A stretch of 64,000 nt of DNA from Balneola sp. (GTDB lineage: Bacteria; Bacteroidota; Rhodothermia; Balneolales; Balneolaceae), in contig JAEPPZ010000009.1 in assembly GCA_017640785.1 (NCBI GenBank), positions 1 through 64,000 on the forward strand, in the 5' to 3' direction. The translations under genes were made by a program, and so were the position numbers. This document shows, in pieces, positions 18,377-63,986 of the stretch. Each line of letters opens with the position of its first letter. Position 1 is the stretch's first letter. The notes beneath the pieces were generated by a model, which was not told the DNA's origin, made no database searches, and worked only from the letters and a program-made list of their open reading frames with translations.

Positions 18377-18817
18377 TCACTTCTCCAATATCAGTGTAAC
18401 CGGACCATCGTTTACTAATTCAACATCCATCATTGCACCAAATTTTCCGGTTTGAATATTTAAATCCGAATGTTCTTTAAAATAAGAGATCATTTCCTCA
18501 TACATCGGTTCTGCTTTATCCGGTTTGGCCGCTTCTATAAAACTGGGTCGAGTTCCTTTTTTTGCATTACCATATAAAGTGAACTGTGAAACTACTAAAA
18601 GTCCTCCGCCCACATCACTTACCGAAAGATTCATTTTTTCGTCTTCATCTTCAAATATCCGCAGCTTCAGAATCTTCTCACACATCCATTCCAGTTGTTC
18701 TTTAGTATCATCTTGATGGATTCCCACCAGTAATAATAAACCCTCTTCAATAGCTCCGGTAATTTCATTTCCGACGGTTACCGATGCCGATTTTACGCGC
18801 TGAATTACAACTTTCAT
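18377..18817 (-). CDS. dtd: D-aminoacyl-tRNA deacylase
   Basis: Removes D-amino acids mischarged on tRNA. 146 residues, family length. Starts MKVVIQRVKSASVTV. The conserved LLVVSQFTLYG, GTRPSFIEAAKP and C-terminal NDGPVTLILE (Gly-cisPro motif) are present. It forms a leftward pair with the metalloenzyme gene. The start borders the candidate replication origin. Confidence 0.96.
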   Translation of the reverse strand: MKVVIQRVKSASVTVGNEITGAIEEGLLLLVGIHQDDTKEQLEWMCEKILKLRIFEDEDEKMNLSVSDVGGGLLVVSQFTLYGNAKKGTRPSFIEAAKPDKAEPMYEEMISYFKEHSDLNIQTGKFGAMMDVELVNDGPVTLILEK

Positions 18818-19255
18818 ATACTAAAATTATGTGGATTACTATGTGGAATACTTACTAACAAAAACTGGATAACTAAAATCGTTCAAAGTTCTCAACAAGT
18901 TTCCACAATTTGTTCACCTAATCAACATTCAAAAAGAATAACTTTTGGTGTTGAACAGCTTCATCTGATTTATATGTACAAAACAGATACACTTGTTGAT
19001 AACAAAAAATATCACTCTATAAATTACTGTTTTTTATAAAAAATATATCAACATTGATATCCACAAAGTTTTGTCAAGCGATGTAGAGAAAAAGAATAAC
19101 TTTGTTATCCACAAATCCACACTCTCTATTACTATATATTAAATTTATAAATCTCATTTTATTTGTCTTTTAGGATGTGGATAAGAAGTGAGAAAAAGGA
19201 TTCTCAAAGAGTTTTATAAGAACGTATATTTAAGCAATAAAAAATTCCTGATCTC
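18818..19255. other. candidate chromosomal replication origin (oriC)
   Basis: 438-bp intergenic, AT-rich region between divergent genes. Perfect DnaA boxes: TTATCCACA at 19105-19113 and its reverse TGTGGATAA at 19176-19184. 8/9 matches: TGTGGATTA 18830-18838, TGTTGATAA 18994-19002, ATATCCACA 19057-19065. 7/9 matches lie at 18864, 18899, 19045 and 19113. Two very AT-rich tracts (about 19003-19056 and 19122-19170) could be the unwinding element. Third-position G/C bias of the flanking genes changes sign here. dnaA itself is not in the window. Inference, not proof. Confidence 0.72.
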
Positions 19256-19765
19256 ATGGATAAAAGATACCCTATTGGAAATTTTGATTACGAGAAAGAT
19301 CACGATCTGAATGATGCAGAAATGTACATCGAACAGATCAAAGAACTTCCTTCAAAAATAAGAGCTCTTGTTTCAGAATTATCAGAAGAACAATTGAATA
19401 CTCCGTACAGAGAAAATGGTTGGACTCCCGTTCAGGTTATTCATCATTTAGGAGATAGTCACCTGAATTCATTGTGCAGATTCAAACTTGCTATGACAGA
19501 AGAAAATCCTACAATTCGTCCTTACAATGAAGCTGCCTGGGCAGTTTTAGGTGACTATGAGTTGATGAGTGTTGAAGAAGGATTGAATTTTCTGGAAGCA
19601 GTTCACTTAAAATGGGTTGCTATCTTTAAAACAATTAAAAAAGATGATTGGAAGCGAACATTTCAACATCCGGAATCGGGAATAAATTATAAACTTATAA
19701 ATGCCTTAGCGATGTATGCCTGGCATGGAAATCATCACTTAGCTCATATTGAACTTGTTAGATAA
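19256..19765 (+). CDS. DinB/YfiT-like putative metal-dependent transferase (BstA-like)
   Basis: 169 residues, four-helix DinB fold. Three candidate metal-ligand histidines are visible: one in VQVIHHLGDSH and two in AWHGNHHLAHIEL. The start DKRYPIGNFDYEK is typical of the YfiT/bacillithiol transferase branch of DinB. The thiol cofactor used by this organism is unknown, so the substrate is left open. Divergent from dtd across the candidate origin. Confidence 0.85.
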   Translation: MDKRYPIGNFDYEKDHDLNDAEMYIEQIKELPSKIRALVSELSEEQLNTPYRENGWTPVQVIHHLGDSHLNSLCRFKLAMTEENPTIRPYNEAAWAVLGDYELMSVEEGLNFLEAVHLKWVAIFKTIKKDDWKRTFQHPESGINYKLINALAMYAWHGNHHLAHIELVR

Positions 19766-19852: not shown

Positions 19853-20863
19853 ATGACAAAAAAGACATTCACATACAAAGATTCAGGCGTAGATATCAAA
19901 GCCGGAGAAGAGCTTGTTAATTCTATAAAAGGAGTAGTTAAAGAGACTCATGGTCCTGCAGTGCTTTCCAACATTGGTGGTTTTGGTGGATTTTTTAAAC
20001 CGGATATGGGAGCGTTTAAGAATCCTGTATTTGTTAGTTCTGTGGATGGCGTTGGAACCAAATTGATTGTGGCGTTCAAAGCCGGAAAATATGATACCGT
20101 TGGACAAGATCTGGTAAATCATTGTGTGAATGATATTGCGGTTTGTGGGGCAACTCCTCTTTTCTTCCTGGATTATTTCTCTACCGGAAAGCTTGAGCAA
20201 AATGTGGGTTATGATGTGATCAAAGGATTTGCGACGGCCTGCAAGGAAAACAATGTAGCTTTGATTGGTGGAGAAACTGCCGAGATGCCTGATATTTACG
20301 GAGAAGGTGAATTTGATCTGGCAGGGACCATTGTCGGTATTGTAGATGAAGACAAAGTGATCAACGGTGCAGGAATTGAAAAAGGTGACGTTCTTCTTGG
20401 ATTCAAAAGTTCAGGATTACATACCAACGGATATTCACTTGCCAGAAAAGTGTTGTTCAGTGAGTACGATGTAAATGATCATGTGGAAGAACTTGGATGT
20501 ACCGTTGCAGAAGAACTATTGCAAGTTCATCGATCATATTTAGGATTGATCTCAGAGCTTAAAGAAATGGATGGAGTAAACGGGTTTTCTCACATTACCG
20601 GTGGTGGAATGGTAGGAAACACCAAACGAATTTTACCGGAAGGATTGGCTTTAAATATTAACTGGGAAGGATGGGAACGTCCTGCGGTTTACAATCTGAT
20701 TCAGGAAATAGGAAATGTACCCGAAGAAGATATGCAGACAACTTTTAATCTTGGAATTGGATTAGTTTGTGTGGTTTCTGCAGATAAAGCAGCGGAAGTA
20801 AAAGCAAAAGCTGAAAGTTTGGGAGAAGAGGTTTTTGAGGTGGGGAGTGTAATTAAGGATTAA
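19853..20863 (+). CDS. purM: phosphoribosylformylglycinamidine cyclo-ligase
   Basis: ATP-dependent closure of the imidazole ring (AIR synthase) in purine biosynthesis. 336 residues, normal. Visible: GVDIKAGEELV, FKNPVFVSSVDGVGTKL, NHCVNDIAVCGATPLFFLDY, ALIGGETAEMP, and SGLHTNGYSLARK. The C-terminal ATP-grasp-like half has FSHITGGGM. Single gene, no other pur genes adjacent. Confidence 0.96.
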   Translation: MTKKTFTYKDSGVDIKAGEELVNSIKGVVKETHGPAVLSNIGGFGGFFKPDMGAFKNPVFVSSVDGVGTKLIVAFKAGKYDTVGQDLVNHCVNDIAVCGATPLFFLDYFSTGKLEQNVGYDVIKGFATACKENNVALIGGETAEMPDIYGEGEFDLAGTIVGIVDEDKVINGAGIEKGDVLLGFKSSGLHTNGYSLARKVLFSEYDVNDHVEELGCTVAEELLQVHRSYLGLISELKEMDGVNGFSHITGGGMVGNTKRILPEGLALNINWEGWERPAVYNLIQEIGNVPEEDMQTTFNLGIGLVCVVSADKAAEVKAKAESLGEEVFEVGSVIKD

Positions 20864-54277: not shown

Positions 54278-54514
54278 AAAGGTCTTCGTTCCTATAGAAG
54301 TAACTCATTTATTTTATTGTACACAAACTTACTCTGGATTAGTGAGCTCAAATGCTACTTCTCTTTACAAATAAATAGAGAAAACGTAGAAATACACGGG
54401 TGGCACAAAGTTTTAAAATCGCTATAAATTCAATATACTAATGAACTCTATCTCGGCTTGATCCTACAAAAACACCGAGCAAAAATGTATTACACTGCAA
54501 ATAAAATAAATCTC

Positions 54515-56902
54515 ATGAAACGTATATCACTTTTAAGTTTAATAGTAATGTTATGTGTCCCTGTGACCATGATTCAAGCTCAAACCACTCCGGATGGTTC
54601 ACTGGAAGCCATGCAAGGCTTTGCCCGTGCCGTTGATGTATCTGACGGCCGCGTATTTGTTGGTGAACCTTCAAACTTTCATCAACCCGGTACCGTTTAT
54701 ATTTTTGGTAAGAAAGGCAACAACTGGGATCAAATGGCCCGTGTTATGGCCAAAGATGGTGTAATTGGTGATAATTTTGGTTCTGCTGTATCTGCAGATG
54801 GAAACCGCGTTTTGATTGGTGCACCTAGCGCTAATGACAGGATAGGAGCCGCGTATATTTTTGAACGCGGACGTGACGGAAACTGGTCACAAAAAGCTAA
54901 TTTTAAACTCGGCGATGATATTACAGCCGGCGGATTAGGTGCAAGTGTAGCATTGACGGGCGATCAGGCTTTTGTAGGCGCTCCAAGCTATGCAGACGGA
55001 AAAGGCTCTGTAATGGTTTTCCAGCGTTCTTCGGGCGGTGTTTGGGCGTTGAAAAGCAACATCATGAATCCGGATACTTCTACAGCTAATTTTGGATCAT
55101 CACTAGCTATTGATGGTGATCAACTTGTAGTAAGCGCTCCGAATCGTGAGGGCGGAACCGTTTTTGTAATGAATAATATGGACGGTGAGTGGACAATGGC
55201 TACTACCTTAAGCAGTAATCAAGCTCAGGAGCAAAGTCGTTTTGGTTCCTCTCTGGCTATAAAAGGAGATCGAATTTTGGTAGGAGCTCCTCGCAACAAC
55301 AATGCGATGGGAACTGTTTTTGTATATGAAAATGTAGATGGAGATTGGAGTCCTTCCGGATTGCTGACGGCATTTGATGTTGAACGACGTTATCAGTTTG
55401 GAGCTTCTGTAGCATTTGCTGAAGATGGAGTTTGGGTTGGAGCTCCGGGAGCTAATGGCTCAAGCGGAAATATTTATCAGTTTATGATGGATGAAGATGG
55501 TGCGTGGACAGGTTCTTCCAAGTTACCTGTTGGAGAACAAGAAGCAGGCGATGGTTTCTCTGGCTCACTAGCTATGGATGGCAATGTCGCAGTAGTAGGA
55601 TTGATCGGTGCTGATTATGGTGCCGGTTCTGCAGTCATAATGGAGAAAAAAGGCTCAGGCGACTGGATGGCTTCTAAAATGATTATCGGAGAAGAATCTT
55701 CTGTGCTGGAACCTGTAAAGGGGCGACGAGTACAGTGTGATGATTTGAAAGCTGAACAATTTGGTTGTAAAAATGTAGATTTGATCTCCTTCCTTCCTGT
55801 AAGTGATATTGGTGGCGGACGCGGCGTTCGTGTTAATGATATTTGGGGATGGACCGATCCTGAGACCGGCGTGGAATATGCACTCGTTGGAAGAAATGAA
55901 GGAACTTCTTTTGTTAGTCTTGCTGATCCCGGTAATCCCGTATACGTAGGTAACCTGCCTATGACAGAAGGCTCTCGTGCAAATGTTTGGAGAGATATCA
56001 AGGTATATAAAAACCATGCTTATATCGTAGCTGATGGCGCCGGAGAACATGGAATGCAGATACTGGATCTAACCAAGCTAAGGGAATTTGATGGCGAACC
56101 ACTACAGTTAGAAGAAACCGCTCTGTACACAGGTATTCACAGTGCTCATAACGTAGTAATCAATGAAGAAACCGGTTACGCCTTTATCGTTGGTAGCAGC
56201 GGAGGTGGAAACACTTGTGGCGGCGGTCTTCATATGTTGAATATTCAAGACCCGACAAATCCTGTATTCGAAGGTTGTTTTTCTGATCCGTCAACAGGAA
56301 GAAGTGGTACCGGTTATTCGCATGATGCACAGTGTGTAATATACAATGGCCCGGATGAAGATCACCAGGGAAGTGAGATCTGCTTTGGCGCAAACGAAAC
56401 GGCAGTAAGTATTGCTGATGTAACCGATAAACAAAATCCGATTGCTCTTTCTACAGCTACCTACCCTAATTATGGATATGTTCACCAGGGTTGGTTGACA
56501 GAAGATCATAAGTACTTCTTTCAGAATGACGAGCTCGATGAATTAATGGGAGCAGTAGAGCGTACTCGTACAATGGTTTGGGATGTAACCGATCTGGATG
56601 ATCCTCAACTATTGAGAGAGTTTTATGTAGAGATCCCGTCATCTGATCACAACCTTTACATCAAAGACGATAAAATGTATCAGTCTAATTATGTAAGTGG
56701 ACTTCAGGTGATTGATGTTTCTGATCCTGCAAATCCTGTAAAAGTAGGCGACTTCGATACTGATCCTTTCTCTAAAGATGCACCCGGTTTTGCCGGAACC
56801 TGGAGTAACTATCCATTCTTCAAAAGTGGTTTAGTTATTATGACCAGTGGTCGCGAAGGTCTTTTCGTACTGGATACAAATGCTAAGGCAATCAGCCAGT
56901 AA
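54515..56902 (+). CDS. choice-of-anchor B family secreted protein
   Basis: 795 residues from ATG 54515 (MKRISLLSL). Signal peptide ends IQAQ. Residues about 25-390 have FG-GAP-like repeats (FGSSLAIDGDQLVVSAP, FGASVAFAEDGVWVGAP and others). Residues 420-795 match the choice-of-anchor B region with LVIVD-type repeats (VDPANPVKVGDF-like, HNVVINEETGYAFIVGSS). A calcium-bearing or surface propeller protein is inferred. The TTG at 54458 would add a non-signal extension. Confidence 0.88.
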   Translation: MKRISLLSLIVMLCVPVTMIQAQTTPDGSLEAMQGFARAVDVSDGRVFVGEPSNFHQPGTVYIFGKKGNNWDQMARVMAKDGVIGDNFGSAVSADGNRVLIGAPSANDRIGAAYIFERGRDGNWSQKANFKLGDDITAGGLGASVALTGDQAFVGAPSYADGKGSVMVFQRSSGGVWALKSNIMNPDTSTANFGSSLAIDGDQLVVSAPNREGGTVFVMNNMDGEWTMATTLSSNQAQEQSRFGSSLAIKGDRILVGAPRNNNAMGTVFVYENVDGDWSPSGLLTAFDVERRYQFGASVAFAEDGVWVGAPGANGSSGNIYQFMMDEDGAWTGSSKLPVGEQEAGDGFSGSLAMDGNVAVVGLIGADYGAGSAVIMEKKGSGDWMASKMIIGEESSVLEPVKGRRVQCDDLKAEQFGCKNVDLISFLPVSDIGGGRGVRVNDIWGWTDPETGVEYALVGRNEGTSFVSLADPGNPVYVGNLPMTEGSRANVWRDIKVYKNHAYIVADGAGEHGMQILDLTKLREFDGEPLQLEETALYTGIHSAHNVVINEETGYAFIVGSSGGGNTCGGGLHMLNIQDPTNPVFEGCFSDPSTGRSGTGYSHDAQCVIYNGPDEDHQGSEICFGANETAVSIADVTDKQNPIALSTATYPNYGYVHQGWLTEDHKYFFQNDELDELMGAVERTRTMVWDVTDLDDPQLLREFYVEIPSSDHNLYIKDDKMYQSNYVSGLQVIDVSDPANPVKVGDFDTDPFSKDAPGFAGTWSNYPFFKSGLVIMTSGREGLFVLDTNAKAISQ

Positions 56903-56914
56903 TTAAATCGTTTC

Positions 56915-56956
56915 AAAAGCAGCCTATCTTATCATACAGATGGGCTGCTTTTTTTT
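56915..56956 (+). terminator. rho-independent terminator
   Basis: AAAGCAGCC (with the following TATCT) pairs with AGATGGGCTGCTTT across a TATCATAC loop, then an 8-nt T run. It follows the choice-of-anchor B gene directly. Confidence 0.85.
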
Positions 56957-56992
56957 ATAAGAATAATATCATAAGCAGAGAAAATTCCAATC

Positions 56993-58054
56993 ATGCGTAG
57001 ATTTTTAGGCTCGTGTTTAGCATTAATATTCCTTTTATCGACCAGTTATGTAAAAGGCCAGATAGCTAACCCTCAATATATTTATACCTGTAATCAAGGT
57101 TCGGCCAGTATCAGCGTGATTGATAATAATACGCACGAGATTGCAACGGTCGTTGATCTACAAGAACTGGGATTTAGCGCCAATGCCAAACCGCATCACG
57201 TAATTGCAGAAGCGGATGGTTCATACTGGTATGTAACTCTGATTGGGGAAAACAGAGTCCTTAAGTTTAACAGAGATAATAAACTGGTAGCTGAAACCGA
57301 AATAGAAGTGCCGGGATTGATGACGATGGATCCTGACAGCGATATACTTTACGTAGGGCGATCAATGAGTGCAGTGAATCCTCCTCAAAGTTTTGGAGTA
57401 ATTAATCGCAGTGATATGAGTCTGGAATCCGAGAAGGATCTGTTTTTTACCCGACCACATGCTATAACCACGTTACCGGGCAGCAATCGGATTTTTGTTG
57501 GAAGCTTGTCTTCAAATCAGTTTCTGTCTGTGAGTTCTAAAGAAGTTGATTCAGAGCTGACCAATCTGGAGGGGATGAATCACATGCTCGTAAATTTTGC
57601 GATCTCTCCGGATAAAAAAACCATGGTAGGAACCGGCCAAATGACGGGCAAATTATTGATATTTGATATTACAAACCCGGTATCTCCGGCGCTGGAAGAG
57701 GCTATTGCTGTGAATGCAGCACCATGGCATCCCGTTTTTTCACCGGATGGTCGGTATGTATACTTTGCAAATAAAGGCACCAACACGGTAACAGTGATCG
57801 ATATGAAAAAGCGTGCAATAGATGCAGTGATCGAAGGTGAAGGACTAAGTCAACCACACGGCGCTGCACTATCTGCTGATGGCAAATTTTTATATGTAAG
57901 CAACAACAATCGAAACGGGGGTTATTTGCCCGAAGGGATGACGGCAGAAGATGCTCCGGGAACCGTGGTGGTTATCGACACTCAGAGCAAAGAGATCATC
58001 AAAGTGATTGAAGTAGGCAAAAATGCCACCGGTATTGGAACCAATGTTCAATAA
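56993..58054 (+). CDS. YncE-like secreted beta-propeller protein
   Basis: 353 residues. Signal peptide ends VKGQ. Seven-bladed propeller repeats: YTCNQGSASISVIDNNTHEIATVV, YVTLIGENRVLKFNRDNK, YVYFANKGTNTVTVIDMKKRAID, YVSNNNRNGGYLPEG. Ends with GTVVVIDTQSKEIIKVIEVG. Such proteins are often paired with cytochrome or copper functions, but no heme or copper motif is visible. Its last bases lie near the next gene. Confidence 0.87.
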   Translation: MRRFLGSCLALIFLLSTSYVKGQIANPQYIYTCNQGSASISVIDNNTHEIATVVDLQELGFSANAKPHHVIAEADGSYWYVTLIGENRVLKFNRDNKLVAETEIEVPGLMTMDPDSDILYVGRSMSAVNPPQSFGVINRSDMSLESEKDLFFTRPHAITTLPGSNRIFVGSLSSNQFLSVSSKEVDSELTNLEGMNHMLVNFAISPDKKTMVGTGQMTGKLLIFDITNPVSPALEEAIAVNAAPWHPVFSPDGRYVYFANKGTNTVTVIDMKKRAIDAVIEGEGLSQPHGAALSADGKFLYVSNNNRNGGYLPEGMTAEDAPGTVVVIDTQSKEIIKVIEVGKNATGIGTNVQ

Positions 58055-58073
58055 AAGATCTCATATTTTAAAG

Positions 58074-59873
58074 ATGCTGAAATACTTCATTTCATCAGTT
58101 TTCATCATTACTCTGATCAATGGGTGTACTGCACAGAAAGAACTGAGAGTGTCCGAATCTGCAGAAACCTATCAACAGCAGATCGATCCGTTTTTTGTGT
58201 TCGATAAAGACGGCAATCAAATTCAGTTTCCATTTATAGGTGGATTGAATACGCCCCGTCCACAATTTGTGGATATCGATAATGACGGCGATTCAGATCT
58301 GTTCCTGCAGGAACACTCTTCTGAATTAATGTTTTTTGAAAACCGTGAACCGGGCACTAAATCAGCTTTGAAATGGATCACCAACACTTATAAGGATCTG
58401 GATATTGGTGAGTGGTTTCGGTTTGTAGATATGGATCAGGACGGAGATATGGATCTGTTGACTGAACAACCATATAGTTACATTCGCTATTACAGAAATG
58501 AAGGAACGGCGGAAAAGGCCAGCTATACATTGGTTGCAGATTCCTTACGAGACATCAATGGAACTCCGATCTTTTCGGATCGGCAGAATATTCCTAACGT
58601 CACGGACATTGACTGTGATGGCATGCCTGACCTTTTTATTGGAAGCCTTGATGGAACACTCGCCCGTTATGAATCTCAGGGTCGCGATGAGAAAGGCACC
58701 CCTCTCTTTAAACTCATTACAAAACGATTTCAGGACATTGAGATCGTGAAACAATTTGGTACGCTCCACGGAGCAAATACAATGGCTTTCATCGATATCG
58801 ACAACGACGGTGATCAGGATATTTTTTGGGGCGATTTCTTTGAACCCAGCATACTGCTGTTAGAAAATACCGGCAGTTGTAGCAATCCACAATTTGTTGG
58901 AGAACCTCGTTCATTTCCACCATCCAGTCCGGTCATGACCAGCGGTTACAATGTGCCGGGTTTGGTAGACTGGGAAGGTGATGGAGACATGGATCTGTTT
59001 CTGGGTGTACTGGGCGGAGCTTATAATACGAATGAAACCACGGCAGATAATTTCTACTTTTTCGAGCAACAGGATAATCGCTTTGAGTTACAAACCGAAC
59101 AATTTCTTTCCATGATTGATACCGGAGACGAAAGTATTGTAACTACCGGTGATCTGGATGGGGACGGAGATCTGGATATGTTGGTATCCAATAAGATCGA
59201 TCCCGATAACCGGAACTCTTCGGTTGTTTATCAATTTGAGAATCGTGGAACCAAACAGAATCCCGAGTTTCACTTGAGCGGTAGTCTGGAATTGCCGGCG
59301 GCTTATCACTATGCTCCTGAGCTGGGTGATCTGGATGGAGACGGAAAAGCAGATCTTATACTTGGGAACTGGAAAGGAGGAATGGATTTCTATCGAAATA
59401 CCGGTTCAGGCTTTGAGTTGATCAAGGAAAATGCTGCCGATTTGCCACGAGGAAGTAACGCCGTTCCCTCTTTGGGCGATCTTGATGCAGATGGCGATCT
59501 GGATTTGATAGTCGGACAGTCGGGAGGCGGAGTTGAGTTCTTTCGAAATGAAGGGACAAACAAAGCGCCTGAATTCATCTCCATACCGGATGCTTTTCCT
59601 GAAGTCGAAAGTTTGCAACGCAGTGCTCCGGCATTGTATGATATTGACAGTGATGGAGATCTGGATCTCTTTTTAGGCACCAAAATTGATGGTTATCTCT
59701 TTTTTAGGAATACAGGAACGTCAACAGATCCGGCATTCACCAAAGAAGCCTTCCCTTTTACCGTGCGTACAACTCAATTGGGAAGCCCACACTTCACCGA
59801 TCTGGATAGCGATGGTGTTGCGGAATTCTTATCCGGCACCCGCGGTGGTGGAGTCCTTTTTTATAAACGGTGA
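58074..59873 (+). CDS. VCBS/FG-GAP repeat lipoprotein
   Basis: 599 residues from ATG 58074 (MLKYFISS), 19 nt after the YncE-like stop. The lipoprotein signal ends ITLINGC. At least seven calcium-binding-like repeats of the D-x-D-x-D-G-D type occur (DIDNDGDSDLFLQ, DMDQDGDMDLLT, DLDGDGDLDMLV, DIDSDGDLDLFLG). They build an integrin-like or propeller fold that binds calcium at the surface. It ends within a few bases of the cassette array. Confidence 0.9.
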   Translation: MLKYFISSVFIITLINGCTAQKELRVSESAETYQQQIDPFFVFDKDGNQIQFPFIGGLNTPRPQFVDIDNDGDSDLFLQEHSSELMFFENREPGTKSALKWITNTYKDLDIGEWFRFVDMDQDGDMDLLTEQPYSYIRYYRNEGTAEKASYTLVADSLRDINGTPIFSDRQNIPNVTDIDCDGMPDLFIGSLDGTLARYESQGRDEKGTPLFKLITKRFQDIEIVKQFGTLHGANTMAFIDIDNDGDQDIFWGDFFEPSILLLENTGSCSNPQFVGEPRSFPPSSPVMTSGYNVPGLVDWEGDGDMDLFLGVLGGAYNTNETTADNFYFFEQQDNRFELQTEQFLSMIDTGDESIVTTGDLDGDGDLDMLVSNKIDPDNRNSSVVYQFENRGTKQNPEFHLSGSLELPAAYHYAPELGDLDGDGKADLILGNWKGGMDFYRNTGSGFELIKENAADLPRGSNAVPSLGDLDADGDLDLIVGQSGGGVEFFRNEGTNKAPEFISIPDAFPEVESLQRSAPALYDIDSDGDLDLFLGTKIDGYLFFRNTGTSTDPAFTKEAFPFTVRTTQLGSPHFTDLDSDGVAEFLSGTRGGGVLFYKR

Positions 59874-59898
59874 AAGTTAAAATTGGTATCTGAGTCCG

Positions 59899-59919
59899 AC
59901 TTGAAATGGTTGTTATACG
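59899..59919 (-). repeat. attC half site, truncated
   Basis: ACTTGAAATGG-TTGTTATACG matches the right arm of the other sites; the left arm is missing, replaced by the end of the VCBS gene region. It marks the left boundary of the cassette cluster. Confidence 0.6.
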
Positions 59920-59920
59920 T

Positions 59921-60160
59921 TTATTCTATTAGTTCTTTAAATGGATCAAAATTATCAAGGCAAATATCTTTCTCATCAAGATTAAATGAAACTGCCTGAT
60001 TTTTCATCATATTTATAATGTGGTGATACGCGGCAAGATAACCTTCTGCAAAAGCTTTACCATTTTCGGAAGAGTTTTGATAGTCTTTCTTTGCATCCAA
60101 AGCTCTTTCTTTGATAGTAAATGCAATGTCTCTTAAATAGTAACGGTGAGCATCACTCAT
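59921..60160 (-). CDS. cassette-encoded small protein
   Basis: 79 residues, start ATG 60160. Helical, with SDAHRYYLRDIAFTIKERALDAKKDY and AFAEGYLAAYHHIINMMK; this resembles hypothetical proteins frequent in chromosomal integron cassettes. Function unknown. Bounded by attC 60175-60281 on its 5' side and the half site on its 3' side. Confidence 0.75.
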   Translation of the reverse strand: MSDAHRYYLRDIAFTIKERALDAKKDYQNSSENGKAFAEGYLAAYHHIINMMKNQAVSFNLDEKDICLDNFDPFKELIE

Positions 60161-60174
60161 ATTAGTTGTTTAAA

Positions 60175-60281
60175 CGTATAACGACCCTGCGTTTAAGCGG
60201 CGAGTCTGGTTTTAATTGTTAAAGTTTCGAATCCGCCTACCCCGAGCATTCTGGGAGTTCACTTGAAACGGTTGTTAGCCC
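60175..60281 (-). repeat. attC-like site B
   Basis: Outer arms TAACGACC / GGTTGTTA and inner arms CGTTTAAGCGG / ACTTGAAACG pair imperfectly; one unpaired base (TTCAAG against TTAAG) resembles the extrahelical base of attC. It follows the 3' end of the toxin gene. Confidence 0.75.
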
Positions 60282-60288
60282 GCATGAT

Positions 60289-60585
60289 TTATAGTTTAGA
60301 TATAGAGAAATCTTGCCGAAAATGTCGAACGGTTAAAATTTCGATAGAATTCTGAAAAACTTCATAAATAACACCATAATTTTTGTGAACTACGATTTCT
60401 CGAATACTCTGATTACCTGTTTCAGGTAAAACTCTACCAACTAATGGATTCTGCCTTAATTCTTCGACCTTCTCTTCAATCTGGTCTATAAGAGCTAACG
60501 CAGCGTCTGTATTATCTTTAGAAATGTATTCGAGAATTTGTCTGGTTTTAGATCTGGCAGTAGGTGACCAAATAATCTTCATCAT
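60289..60585 (-). CDS. RelE/ParE-family toxin
   Basis: 98 residues, type II toxin fold: IIWSPTARSKTRQILEYI, ALALIDQIEEKVEELRQNPLVGRVLP and REIVVHKNYGVIYEV, with IEILTVRHFRQDF at the C-terminus. It matches the ParE/plasmid-stabilisation branch better than RelE ribosome-dependent RNases. Whether gyrase is the target is inference. Overlaps its antitoxin by 4 nt. Confidence 0.9.
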   Translation of the reverse strand: MMKIIWSPTARSKTRQILEYISKDNTDAALALIDQIEEKVEELRQNPLVGRVLPETGNQSIREIVVHKNYGVIYEVFQNSIEILTVRHFRQDFSISKL

Positions 60586-60860
60586 GAATATTCAGCTCTC
60601 AGTTCACTGAAAAACTTTTCATGACTCACTCCTTCTCCATTATTTAGTTCCTTACGCGCAGTAGTTAATTCTTCCAATAACTGAATTTTGTCGAGCATCT
60701 TTTGATAATCTTCCACATCTATTAATACCGCAGAACTTTTACCATGCTGTGTAATAACAAGAGGTCGTCTTTCTGATTTAACTTGTTCTATAAAAGACGC
60801 CGCATTTGCCCGAAAATCGGAAAGTGATCGTATATCTTGATCAAGTTGAATGTGAGACAT
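60582..60860 (-). CDS. Phd/YefM-family antitoxin
   Basis: 92 residues. SLSDFRANAASFIEQVKSERRPLVITQHGKSSAVLIDVEDYQKML is the Phd/YefM DNA-binding fold; the C-terminal helices wrap the toxin. Its promoter must lie in the 60861-60945 gap inside the cassette, so the pair can be expressed without an outside promoter. Confidence 0.92.
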   Translation of the reverse strand: MSHIQLDQDIRSLSDFRANAASFIEQVKSERRPLVITQHGKSSAVLIDVEDYQKMLDKIQLLEELTTARKELNNGEGVSHEKFFSELRAEYS

Positions 60861-60945
60861 GAGATAAAGAATTAATTAATTGTACTGATTAATGTACTAA
60901 ATACAGAACAAAAAAGTTGTTTAAAATTTCTTTAGCAGTTTAGGA

Positions 60946-61036
60946 GGCTAACGACCCTGCGTTTAAGCGGCGAGTCTGGTTTTAGTTATTAAAGTTTCGA
61001 ACCGCATTCGAGTCCGCTTAAAACGCTTGTTATGTT
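60946..61036 (-). repeat. attC-like site C
   Basis: Begins GGCTAACGACC, ends TTGTTATGTTG; shares TGCGTTTAAGCGGCGAGTC with site B. Shorter central part (91 bp). Lies after the 3' end of the 77-residue cassette gene. Confidence 0.75.
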
Positions 61037-61042
61037 GCAACA

Positions 61043-61276
61043 TTACCCAATAAAGAGCTTATCTATTAAATTTTCTAACTGTTTTCCAATTTCATTCGCA
61101 TTGTAATCCAAATCAAAGCCAGAAACTTGAAGCTTTTCTCCACAAAGATCTCTGAGATCATCAGCTTCATCTTCATTTAGATCATCATTTTTCTCTAGCT
61201 TAATTCTCAATTGTTCTGGCAACTCGATTTGATCGAGGATAAACAGCGAATCGTCTTTAGATAATTTGATAGACAT
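61043..61276 (-). CDS. cassette-encoded acidic small protein
   Basis: 77 residues from ATG 61276 (MSIKLSKDD). Acidic and helical: LPEQLRIKLEKNDDLNEDEADDLRDL and GKQLENLIDKLFIG. No known family. The earlier possible start at 61315 falls inside the neighbouring attC and is rejected. It sits between attC C and D. Confidence 0.72.
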   Translation of the reverse strand: MSIKLSKDDSLFILDQIELPEQLRIKLEKNDDLNEDEADDLRDLCGEKLQVSGFDLDYNANEIGKQLENLIDKLFIG

Positions 61277-61287
61277 TTTTGAAAACA

Positions 61288-61393
61288 ACCTAACGACTCT
61301 GCGTTTAAGCGGCAAGTCGTGTTAAAATTATTAAAGTTCGGAACCAGCCTGCCTCGAGCATTCGGGGAGTTCACTTGAAACGTTTGTTATGTT
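61288..61393 (-). repeat. attC-like site D
   Basis: Begins ACCTAAC, a perfect match to RYYYAAC, and ends GTTATGTTG. Inner TGCGTTTAAGCGGCAAGTC and TTCACTTGAAACG arms pair. It follows the 91-residue cassette gene. Confidence 0.75.
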
Positions 61394-61420
61394 GCCAATT
61401 ACTGTGTGTAAATTGTGTAT

Positions 61421-61696
61421 TCATAAAGAATGGTAAGCCTTTGACTTGGAATAACAATCAACACAAACAATAGTCATTCCATTAAACTCTTTAAAGATGT
61501 CTGTCATACCACCTTCTTCTTCGAATACTTTTTCACATCGTTCGCACCAAGCTTGAAGGTCATTGGGATGGCTAACGTTTTCAACAAATCCTACTTTATC
61601 TCCTTCATTCTTTAACAAATGACAACACACTACCGAAGAAATGCGCTTGCCATGCCTGCCACATTCTACATACATCGGTTCAATTTCTGATTCCAT
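61421..61696 (-). CDS. cassette-encoded cysteine-rich protein
   Basis: 91 residues. Six cysteines in three clusters: VECGRHG, VVCCHLL, WCERCEKVF and IVCVDCYSK, which suggest one or two zinc ribbons. No family recognised. It is the 5'-most clear cassette of the cluster. Confidence 0.72.
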   Translation of the reverse strand: MESEIEPMYVECGRHGKRISSVVCCHLLKNEGDKVGFVENVSHPNDLQAWCERCEKVFEEEGGMTDIFKEFNGMTIVCVDCYSKSKAYHSL

Positions 61697-61994
61697 TTAG
61701 CAATATAACATAATATTATCCGAACAAGGGTTTTGTTAGCACGGGGTGGATAATATCCAAAAATCATACTTCAAACTCATCATTAATTGTTTTTGAGATG
61801 TTACCCGTCTCGTTAGTCGGATAACCTCTGAGGCACATATAGATAGTATGAAAGTAGCACAAATTCATCGAAACAATTATTATCCAAGATACGAACAAAC
61901 CAACCCAAGGATTCTGGTTGCAGAAATAATAATTTCTGTTACCTTTTTGAATCTTTCGGGAATATTTATCGGGAATGCAAATCAACTCAAGTAA
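61697..61994. other. gap with degenerate cassette edge and promoter region
   Basis: At 61703-61742 an ATATAAC...GTTAGCA pair could be a decayed attC. A weak leftward ORF of 73 residues (61764-61985, TTG start, one hydrophobic stretch) may be a remnant of another cassette, but is not called. The right end should hold the promoter of the serine hydrolase. Confidence 0.4.
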
Positions 61995-63986
61995 ATGAAA
62001 AAACTAACGACGTTACTTTTAGCTCTTCTGTTAACCACAGGCTTTTCTATAGCTCAAACCACAACCCCGCTAAAAGTCGGGGACGAAATTGATGATGCCT
62101 TAAAAACAGGTGAAACCGATGTGTTCACACTTACCATTGACGCTGATCAGTTTGTATTTGGCTATGCCGATCAAAAAACGGTGGACGTGGTGATTACCGT
62201 AAAAGGGCCGGATGGAACGCCCGTTGCTTCTTTTGACAGTCCTGCACGGGGCCACGAAAATTTTCAGTTTAATACAGAAGACGCAGGACAGTACACTTTT
62301 GAAATAACCCCTTTTGAAGAGGAAGAGGGAGATTACAGTTTGCTGGTTTCGCATGTTGAGCCGGTAGCAAAAGAGCCAGCCGGCAGAGTGGATCAGCTGA
62401 TGATGCAATACTCCGGAAATGACGTGCCCGGCGCAGCAGCCTTGGTGATGAAAGACGGAGAAGTTATTTTCCAAAAATCGTATGGCATGGCTAACCTTAC
62501 TCATAATGAGCCTATGCAGGAAAATACACTTCATAACATTGGGTCAACTTCCAAGCAGTTTCTGACTTTTGGGCTGTTGCTTTTAGAAGAAGAGGGTAAG
62601 CTGGACCTGGATGATGACGTTCGTACATATATACCTGAATTGCCTGAGTTTGATCAGGTTGTAACACTCAGGAATCTTGTAAACCACACCAGCGGATATC
62701 GTGAGTTTCTAAACTTGTTGGCTATGACGGGCCGCAATCCGAGTTCAAGTTTAAGTCAGGAACAGGTGATTGAAATTGTTCAGCGCCAGCCGGAATTACA
62801 GAACGTGCCCGGAGCCGAGTGGAATTACAATAATACCGGTTATGTGATTATGACGGAAGTCATAGAGCGAATTAGCGATATGAGTTTCCCTCAATGGATG
62901 AAAGAAAATGTGTTTGAGCCTATCGGTATGAATCACACAGTTTCCCGCAGCGACCCGGGAGAGGTCATTGAAAACCGTTCCCAGGGGTATCAACCTTCCG
63001 AAGATGGTAGCGTTGCCGAAGTGAGTGATTTGGGCGGTGGTATGGGGCCCGGCGCCATTTATACTACCCTCGGTGATCTTTCAAAATGGATTAACAATCT
63101 TCAGGATCCAAAGGTGGGAACCGAAGCTATGGTTGAGGAAATGACCACCTCTTTTGAGTTAAATGAGGGCAATAAAACCGGCTACGGCCTGGGTTTTTTT
63201 GTAGCTAAATACAAAGGGCTGGATTACTTCCATCATGGAGGAGCCGATCTGGCGCACCGCTCCATGCTTATGGTGTTCCCGGGAATTGATGCAGCCGTGG
63301 TGACTCAGAGCAACCATGCTTCTTTTAATGGAAGTATTCCCAATCAAATAGCAGAGGCCTTTTTTGATGAATATATGGAAGCAGATTCAGCAGAAGCCGA
63401 TGAAGAAATGGCTGCTGAAAAGAAAGAGGAATTTGAATACGACCCGGCCGACTTTGATCCGCTAACCGGTCGCTATGAACTGGAAGTTATGCCCGGTTTT
63501 ATCCTCAGTTTTTCCAGAGATGACGATAGGATTTACACACAGGCTACCGGTCAGCCGGAAGTTGATATTACAGCCACATCCGACTCTACCTTTAGTTTGG
63601 TTGGAGTGAATGCCTCAGTCACCTTTCACAGAAATGAAGATTATACTGCTGATTCGCTTACCCTGCACCAAAACGGAAATCATATCGCGAAGAAAATAAA
63701 ATTTGAGGTGACGGTGGATGAAATGGAGGAGTTTACCGGTCGATACTTCAGTGAAGAAATAGAAACGGTATATGATATTGCCATTGAAGACAGCAGCCTG
63801 ATGCTTAAAAATTATCAGTTGGCGGATGATATTAAATTGTCGCCGGGAAGCGTCGACACATTTAGTGCAGGATACCCAATTGCCGAGGTAGATTTTGTGC
63901 GTAACGAGGCGGGAGAAATCACCGGTTTCAATGCTTCGAACGGAAGAACCAGGAATGTTTATTTTAAAAAATGGAGTGACAAATAA
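61995..63986 (+). CDS. secreted serine hydrolase (class C beta-lactamase fold)
   Basis: 663 residues. Signal peptide ending SIAQ; residues 25-122 look like a PPC-type beta-sandwich (TDVFTLTIDADQFV, GQYTFEITPFEEEEGDYSLLV). The catalytic domain has S184-T-S-K187, Y278-N-N280 and HHGG in the HxG position, so all three motif elements are present. A lipocalin-like C-terminal part (from about 475) completes it. D-alanyl peptidase or esterase activity is more likely than antibiotic hydrolysis. Confidence 0.92.
   Translation: MKKLTTLLLALLLTTGFSIAQTTTPLKVGDEIDDALKTGETDVFTLTIDADQFVFGYADQKTVDVVITVKGPDGTPVASFDSPARGHENFQFNTEDAGQYTFEITPFEEEEGDYSLLVSHVEPVAKEPAGRVDQLMMQYSGNDVPGAAALVMKDGEVIFQKSYGMANLTHNEPMQENTLHNIGSTSKQFLTFGLLLLEEEGKLDLDDDVRTYIPELPEFDQVVTLRNLVNHTSGYREFLNLLAMTGRNPSSSLSQEQVIEIVQRQPELQNVPGAEWNYNNTGYVIMTEVIERISDMSFPQWMKENVFEPIGMNHTVSRSDPGEVIENRSQGYQPSEDGSVAEVSDLGGGMGPGAIYTTLGDLSKWINNLQDPKVGTEAMVEEMTTSFELNEGNKTGYGLGFFVAKYKGLDYFHHGGADLAHRSMLMVFPGIDAAVVTQSNHASFNGSIPNQIAEAFFDEYMEADSAEADEEMAAEKKEEFEYDPADFDPLTGRYELEVMPGFILSFSRDDDRIYTQATGQPEVDITATSDSTFSLVGVNASVTFHRNEDYTADSLTLHQNGNHIAKKIKFEVTVDEMEEFTGRYFSEEIETVYDIAIEDSSLMLKNYQLADDIKLSPGSVDTFSAGYPIAEVDFVRNEAGEITGFNASNGRTRNVYFKKWSDK

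Follow-up and report, generated by a model that had tools for sequence, protein, structure and literature searches.

The 438-bp intergenic region between dtd and a DinB-like gene in the Balneola sp. genome is very probably the single chromosomal origin of replication (oriC), and of the DnaA type. The initial annotation, made on a 64-kb stretch of this genome (the window), had proposed the region as a candidate chromosomal origin, a reading supported here by a cluster of DnaA boxes, a switch in strand skew, low duplex stability and conservation of the locus. The sequence features sought for a DnaA-type oriC were all found: a box cluster, a minus to plus skew switch, an AT-rich unwinding element, a terminus roughly opposite the origin (in a relative), and an encoded DnaA.

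An AT-rich intergenic region with a cluster of DnaA boxes

The minus-strand dtd gene has its start codon at 18817 and the plus-strand DinB-like ORF begins at 19256, so the gap between these divergent genes has the coordinates initially given to it. It is AT-rich, as claimed, with a G+C content of 26.5% compared to 38.7% for the window (Table 1). The right-hand gene had been called DinB; its product does belong to the DinB_2 superfamily (YfiT/DinB-like), but it is not DNA polymerase IV. Both perfect DnaA boxes and all three one-mismatch boxes that had been reported in the gap were found, in both orientations, along with eight additional boxes with two mismatches. Five boxes with at most one mismatch were reached in none of 2000 dinucleotide-preserving shuffles (shuffle mean 0.16), and any 438-bp stretch in the rest of the window contains at most three. 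The least stable 40 bp of the entire window lie within the gap, a few bases past a tandem box pair.

Table 1. Features of the origin region and its flanking genes (window coordinates).
Feature	Position	Strand	Evidence or remarks
dtd, D-Tyr-tRNA deacylase, left flank	18377..18817	-	ORF and domain
oriC, AT-rich intergenic region, dtd / DinB-like (very probable)	18818..19255	.	boxes, skew, conservation
dtd-proximal tandem DnaA boxes	18830..18850	-	TGTGGATTA 18830-18838, one mismatch; TGTGGAATA 18842-18850, two mismatches
weak DnaA box GTTTCCACA, two mismatches	18899..18907	+	strongly conserved
weak DnaA box TAATCAACA, two mismatches	18919..18927	+	conserved
origin-linked 15-mer AAAAAGAATAACTTT, copy 1	18931..18945	+	genome pattern search
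DnaA box TTATCAACA, one mismatch	18994..19002	-	box search
second AT-rich low-stability stretch	19007..19059	.	stability scan
DnaA box ATATCCACA, one mismatch	19057..19065	+	box search, conservation
15-mer AAAAAGAATAACTTT, copy 2	19089..19103	+	one base ahead of box pair
unwinding-module tandem DnaA boxes	19105..19121	+	perfect TTATCCACA 19105-19113; AAATCCACA 19113-19121
likely DNA unwinding element	19125..19164	.	least stable 40 bp in 64-kb window
DnaA-trios CTA TTA CTA	19126..19134	+	4 bases past second box, 12 past perfect box
perfect DnaA box (TTATCCACA), reverse orientation	19176..19184	-	box search, conservation
conserved TATATTTA before DinB-like gene	19225..19232	+	alignment of 19 gaps
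DinB_2 superfamily gene, right flank	19256..19765	+	present in Balneolaceae; absent at origin of G043 (family f4)
purM-like AIR synthase	19853..20863	+	direct origin neighbour in family f4 (G043)

Strand skew switches at the gap

Skew was expressed relative to the plus strand and measured from G and C at fourfold-degenerate sites, with the genes of each strand fitted separately. A change-point test was carried out on the window and the two following stretches (~104 kb, 88 genes). The best change point was 18817/19256, exactly the gap, with a log-likelihood gain of 24.0 (permutation 99th percentile, 17.4), and none of 500 permutations of gene order equalled it. This bears out the change of sign in third-position G/C bias that had been described at this position. 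Towards its right end (54458-63986), the window contains genes with flat or reversed fourfold skew, possibly surface genes that were acquired recently or are highly expressed.

Skew along the remainder of the genome was taken from sampled stretches covering about a quarter of it. The sampled stretches of contigs C10, C11, C12, C15 and C17 all have one sign, those of C2 and C16 have the opposite sign, and the minus to plus switch lies on C18 at the dtd gap. The right arm is noisy, with C18:120-140 kb negative against the trend. On contig C13 the skew changes from plus to minus between about 140 and 230 kb, which suggests that the replication terminus is probably located on this contig.

We also examined a relative from the same genus (G003) that is assembled as one contig of 3,489,855 bases, fitting a two-break model to forty 20-kb stretches (614 sampled genes, again about a quarter of the genome). 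The first break falls at the edges of dtd, at 954,906 or, within about 1-2 log units, at the homologous gap (955,359-955,783), and the local cumulative skew minimum is at 955,882. The second break falls at 2.716-2.753 Mb, nearly diametrically opposite the gap, half a chromosome from which is 2.70 Mb. A skew switch far from the gap had been named in the initial annotation as evidence against an origin; the switch is at the gap in its own genome, and G003 agrees independently. Skew resolves the position to about one gene per side, which could accommodate a replication start beyond the gap but close to it, perhaps no more than a few kilobases away, with the boxes serving as an accessory cluster. 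However, no further box cluster, tandem pair or similarly unstable stretch was found nearby in the window, and we consider such a displaced start very improbable.

The probable origin is distant from dnaA

The window lacks dnaA, as the initial annotation stated, but the genome does not: it has one match (E 8.9e-67), on contig C17. The dtd gap and dnaA are therefore on different contigs in this assembly, and in G003, where dnaA is located at 1.302 Mb, they are 347 kb apart. The skew on either side of dnaA has the same sign in both genomes (-0.154/-0.147 on C17 and +0.118/+0.108 in G003).

Competing clusters were assessed from the complete genome list of perfect boxes. A stronger cluster at another skew minimum would have weighed against the dtd gap; the other close pairs of perfect boxes, on C10, on C12 and upstream of dnaA on C17, all sit in stretches without a skew change. 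The array upstream of dnaA (C17:83867-84129, locus L031) comprises two perfect boxes and another two or three with one mismatch, all in a single orientation, with spacings of 99, 152 and 11 bp that are fixed across most of the family. Given this conservation, and given that dnaA-side origins are usual in many bacteria, the array could be taken for the true origin and the dtd gap for a DnaA-binding region of secondary importance, used for instance in titration or regulation. The constant sign of the skew across dnaA in both genomes, the single orientation of the boxes and the failure to find the unwinding module described below in the array make this highly unlikely. The array probably serves dnaA autoregulation, which fits better.

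The locus is conserved across Balneolales

The group compared was identified through one of its genomes, G024, which has the same dtd locus, without differences, as the Balneolaceae MAG contig VEMX01000017.1. The gap is 430-456 bp long in 19 Balneolaceae genomes, in most of which, beyond the closest species, the identity of the DinB-like neighbour is down to 40-57%. The best-conserved 9-mers in an alignment of these 19 gaps are nearly all DnaA boxes, including TGTGGATTACTATGTGGA, GTTTCCACA and TTATCCACAAATCCACA, and the dtd-proximal tandem boxes are among the best kept. Boxes upstream of dtd recur in other Balneolales families. In G043 (family f4) the dtd gap has seven boxes and leads straight to purM; fourfold skew in this genome is weak and too noisy alone to locate a switch. 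Skew that is minus on the near left and plus on the near right of the homologous gap was observed in five genomes from three families (G010, G018, G025, G036 of f3 and G038 of f5). At another f4 locus (L057), no boxes were found upstream of dtd.

These comparisons bear on whether the gap is a mere bidirectional promoter region, with boxes that regulate dtd and the DinB-like gene and a skew break that marks an old inversion boundary. The flanking genes are divergent, and the conserved, promoter-like TATATTTA ahead of the DinB-like gene resembles the Bacteroidetes -7 promoter element (TAnnTTTG), which we take to be that of this gene. However, the gap and its boxes persist in G043 with purM as the right neighbour, the break at the gap is one of only two fitted on the G003 chromosome and the other is nearly opposite, and recurrent inversions at one junction in f1, f3 and f5 are not expected. 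We therefore give a promoter region with an inversion boundary very little credence compared to an origin.

Outside the order, the 700 bp upstream of dtd contain zero or one box in all 52 sampled genomes of the phylum, and dtd-linked boxes as a phylum-wide rule were rejected on this basis.

A conserved putative unwinding module and an origin-linked repeat

In the window, the tandem boxes TTATCCACAAATCCACA are followed by the spacer CTCT and the DnaA-trios CTATTACTA, with the low-stability segment directly adjoining. TTATCCACAAATCCACA followed by four bases and CTA is present in 19 of 19 aligned Balneolaceae gaps. Of 25 Balneolaceae genomes, 22 contain this tandem-box pattern exactly once, and its reversed control has zero matches over 60 genomes. 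Wherever the position of dtd was known for comparison, the match is upstream of dtd. Elsewhere in the class there is a single match, not near dtd, which in that genome is on a different contig, and the exact pattern was not found in genus g19 (G025, G034 and G087). Three consecutive trios are present in approximately 11 of the 19 gaps and the run is interrupted in the remaining gaps.

A DnaA box pair, a gap and DnaA-trios make up the layout of the basal unwinding system (BUS; PMC8287927). Scored as a box pair, a spacer of at most 16 bp and at least three trios of the form.A., a putative BUS was found in the window, with CTA TTA CTA after a 4-bp gap. It resembles the BUS of Bacillus subtilis oriC (DnaA-boxes 6/7 and DnaA-trios; PMC6669920, PMC8287927) in its tandem boxes, of which the upstream one is nearer the consensus, and in its 4-bp gap and CTA (3'-GAT-5') trios. 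The better box is 12 bp from the trios, and the published peak for the BUS is 10-13 (PMC8287927). Unlike in B. subtilis, the boxes overlap by one base, and frequently just two or three trios are uninterrupted.

By analogy with this known system, DnaA would bind the perfect and tandem boxes of the module together with the outlying boxes, and a DnaA filament would extend from the tandem pair along the trios on one strand. The adjoining AT-rich segment would then melt and helicase would be loaded at the melted stretch. Initiation at the gap would send out two forks, one leftwards through dtd and the other rightwards through the DinB-like gene and purM.

The two copies of the 15-mer AAAAAGAATAACTTT in the gap are 158 bp apart. 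Among 29 genomes of the family, 14 of its 19 exact occurrences fall in the origin gap, and the reversed control has three occurrences. AAAAAGAATAACTTT is strongly linked to the origin in Balneolaceae and is possibly a new element. A more speculative proposal is that Balneolales share a single ancestral origin locus, near-constant in length and with its place fixed at dtd/purM, where an extra lineage-specific factor governs initiation. This factor would recognize the repeated 15-mer, which in one of its two copies lies against the unwinding box pair; we regard this proposal as possible but doubtful.

Relation to known origins

The oriC of Escherichia coli, between gidA and mioC, is located away from dnaA and has DnaA boxes in both orientations beside an AT-rich unwinding element. 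The Balneola gap is likewise distant from dnaA, with boxes in both orientations and an adjoining AT-rich unwinding element. It differs in having other neighbours and one GATC site, with no sequence kinship shown.

A Prevotella genome paper, drawing on DoriC, states that a long distance between oriC and dnaA is common in Bacteroidetes (PMC4755523). By that statement, the kind of origin represented by the dtd gap is already known. The remark in the initial annotation that such an origin is easily missed by dnaA-based annotation is right, yet dnaA-distant origins are, on the same account, no novelty in this phylum. As in those origins, an intergenic box cluster sits at a skew transition; what differs is the dtd / DinB-like / purM address, which is specific to Balneolales in our sample. 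At the level of titles and abstracts, the literature searched contained no description of a Balneola or Balneolaceae origin or of a Balneolales address. The conserved dtd-oriC-(DinB-like)-purM address and the 15-mer are minor novelties, the 15-mer only possibly so. The locus provides a firm origin address for an order in which dnaA-based annotation of the chromosome start errs by several hundred kilobases, and a minimal sequence ready for use in an oriC plasmid, for bacteria among which genetic tools are probably scarce. It is also an example of an origin that has kept its place throughout an order despite a change of the gene on its right side.

In two Saprospiraceae MAGs, dtd is separated from a ctaA/COX15-like gene by an AT-rich gap that contains 4-5 DnaA boxes (L178:5613-6000 and L254:5544-6000). 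This raises the possibility that the origins of these Saprospiraceae may be linked to dtd too.
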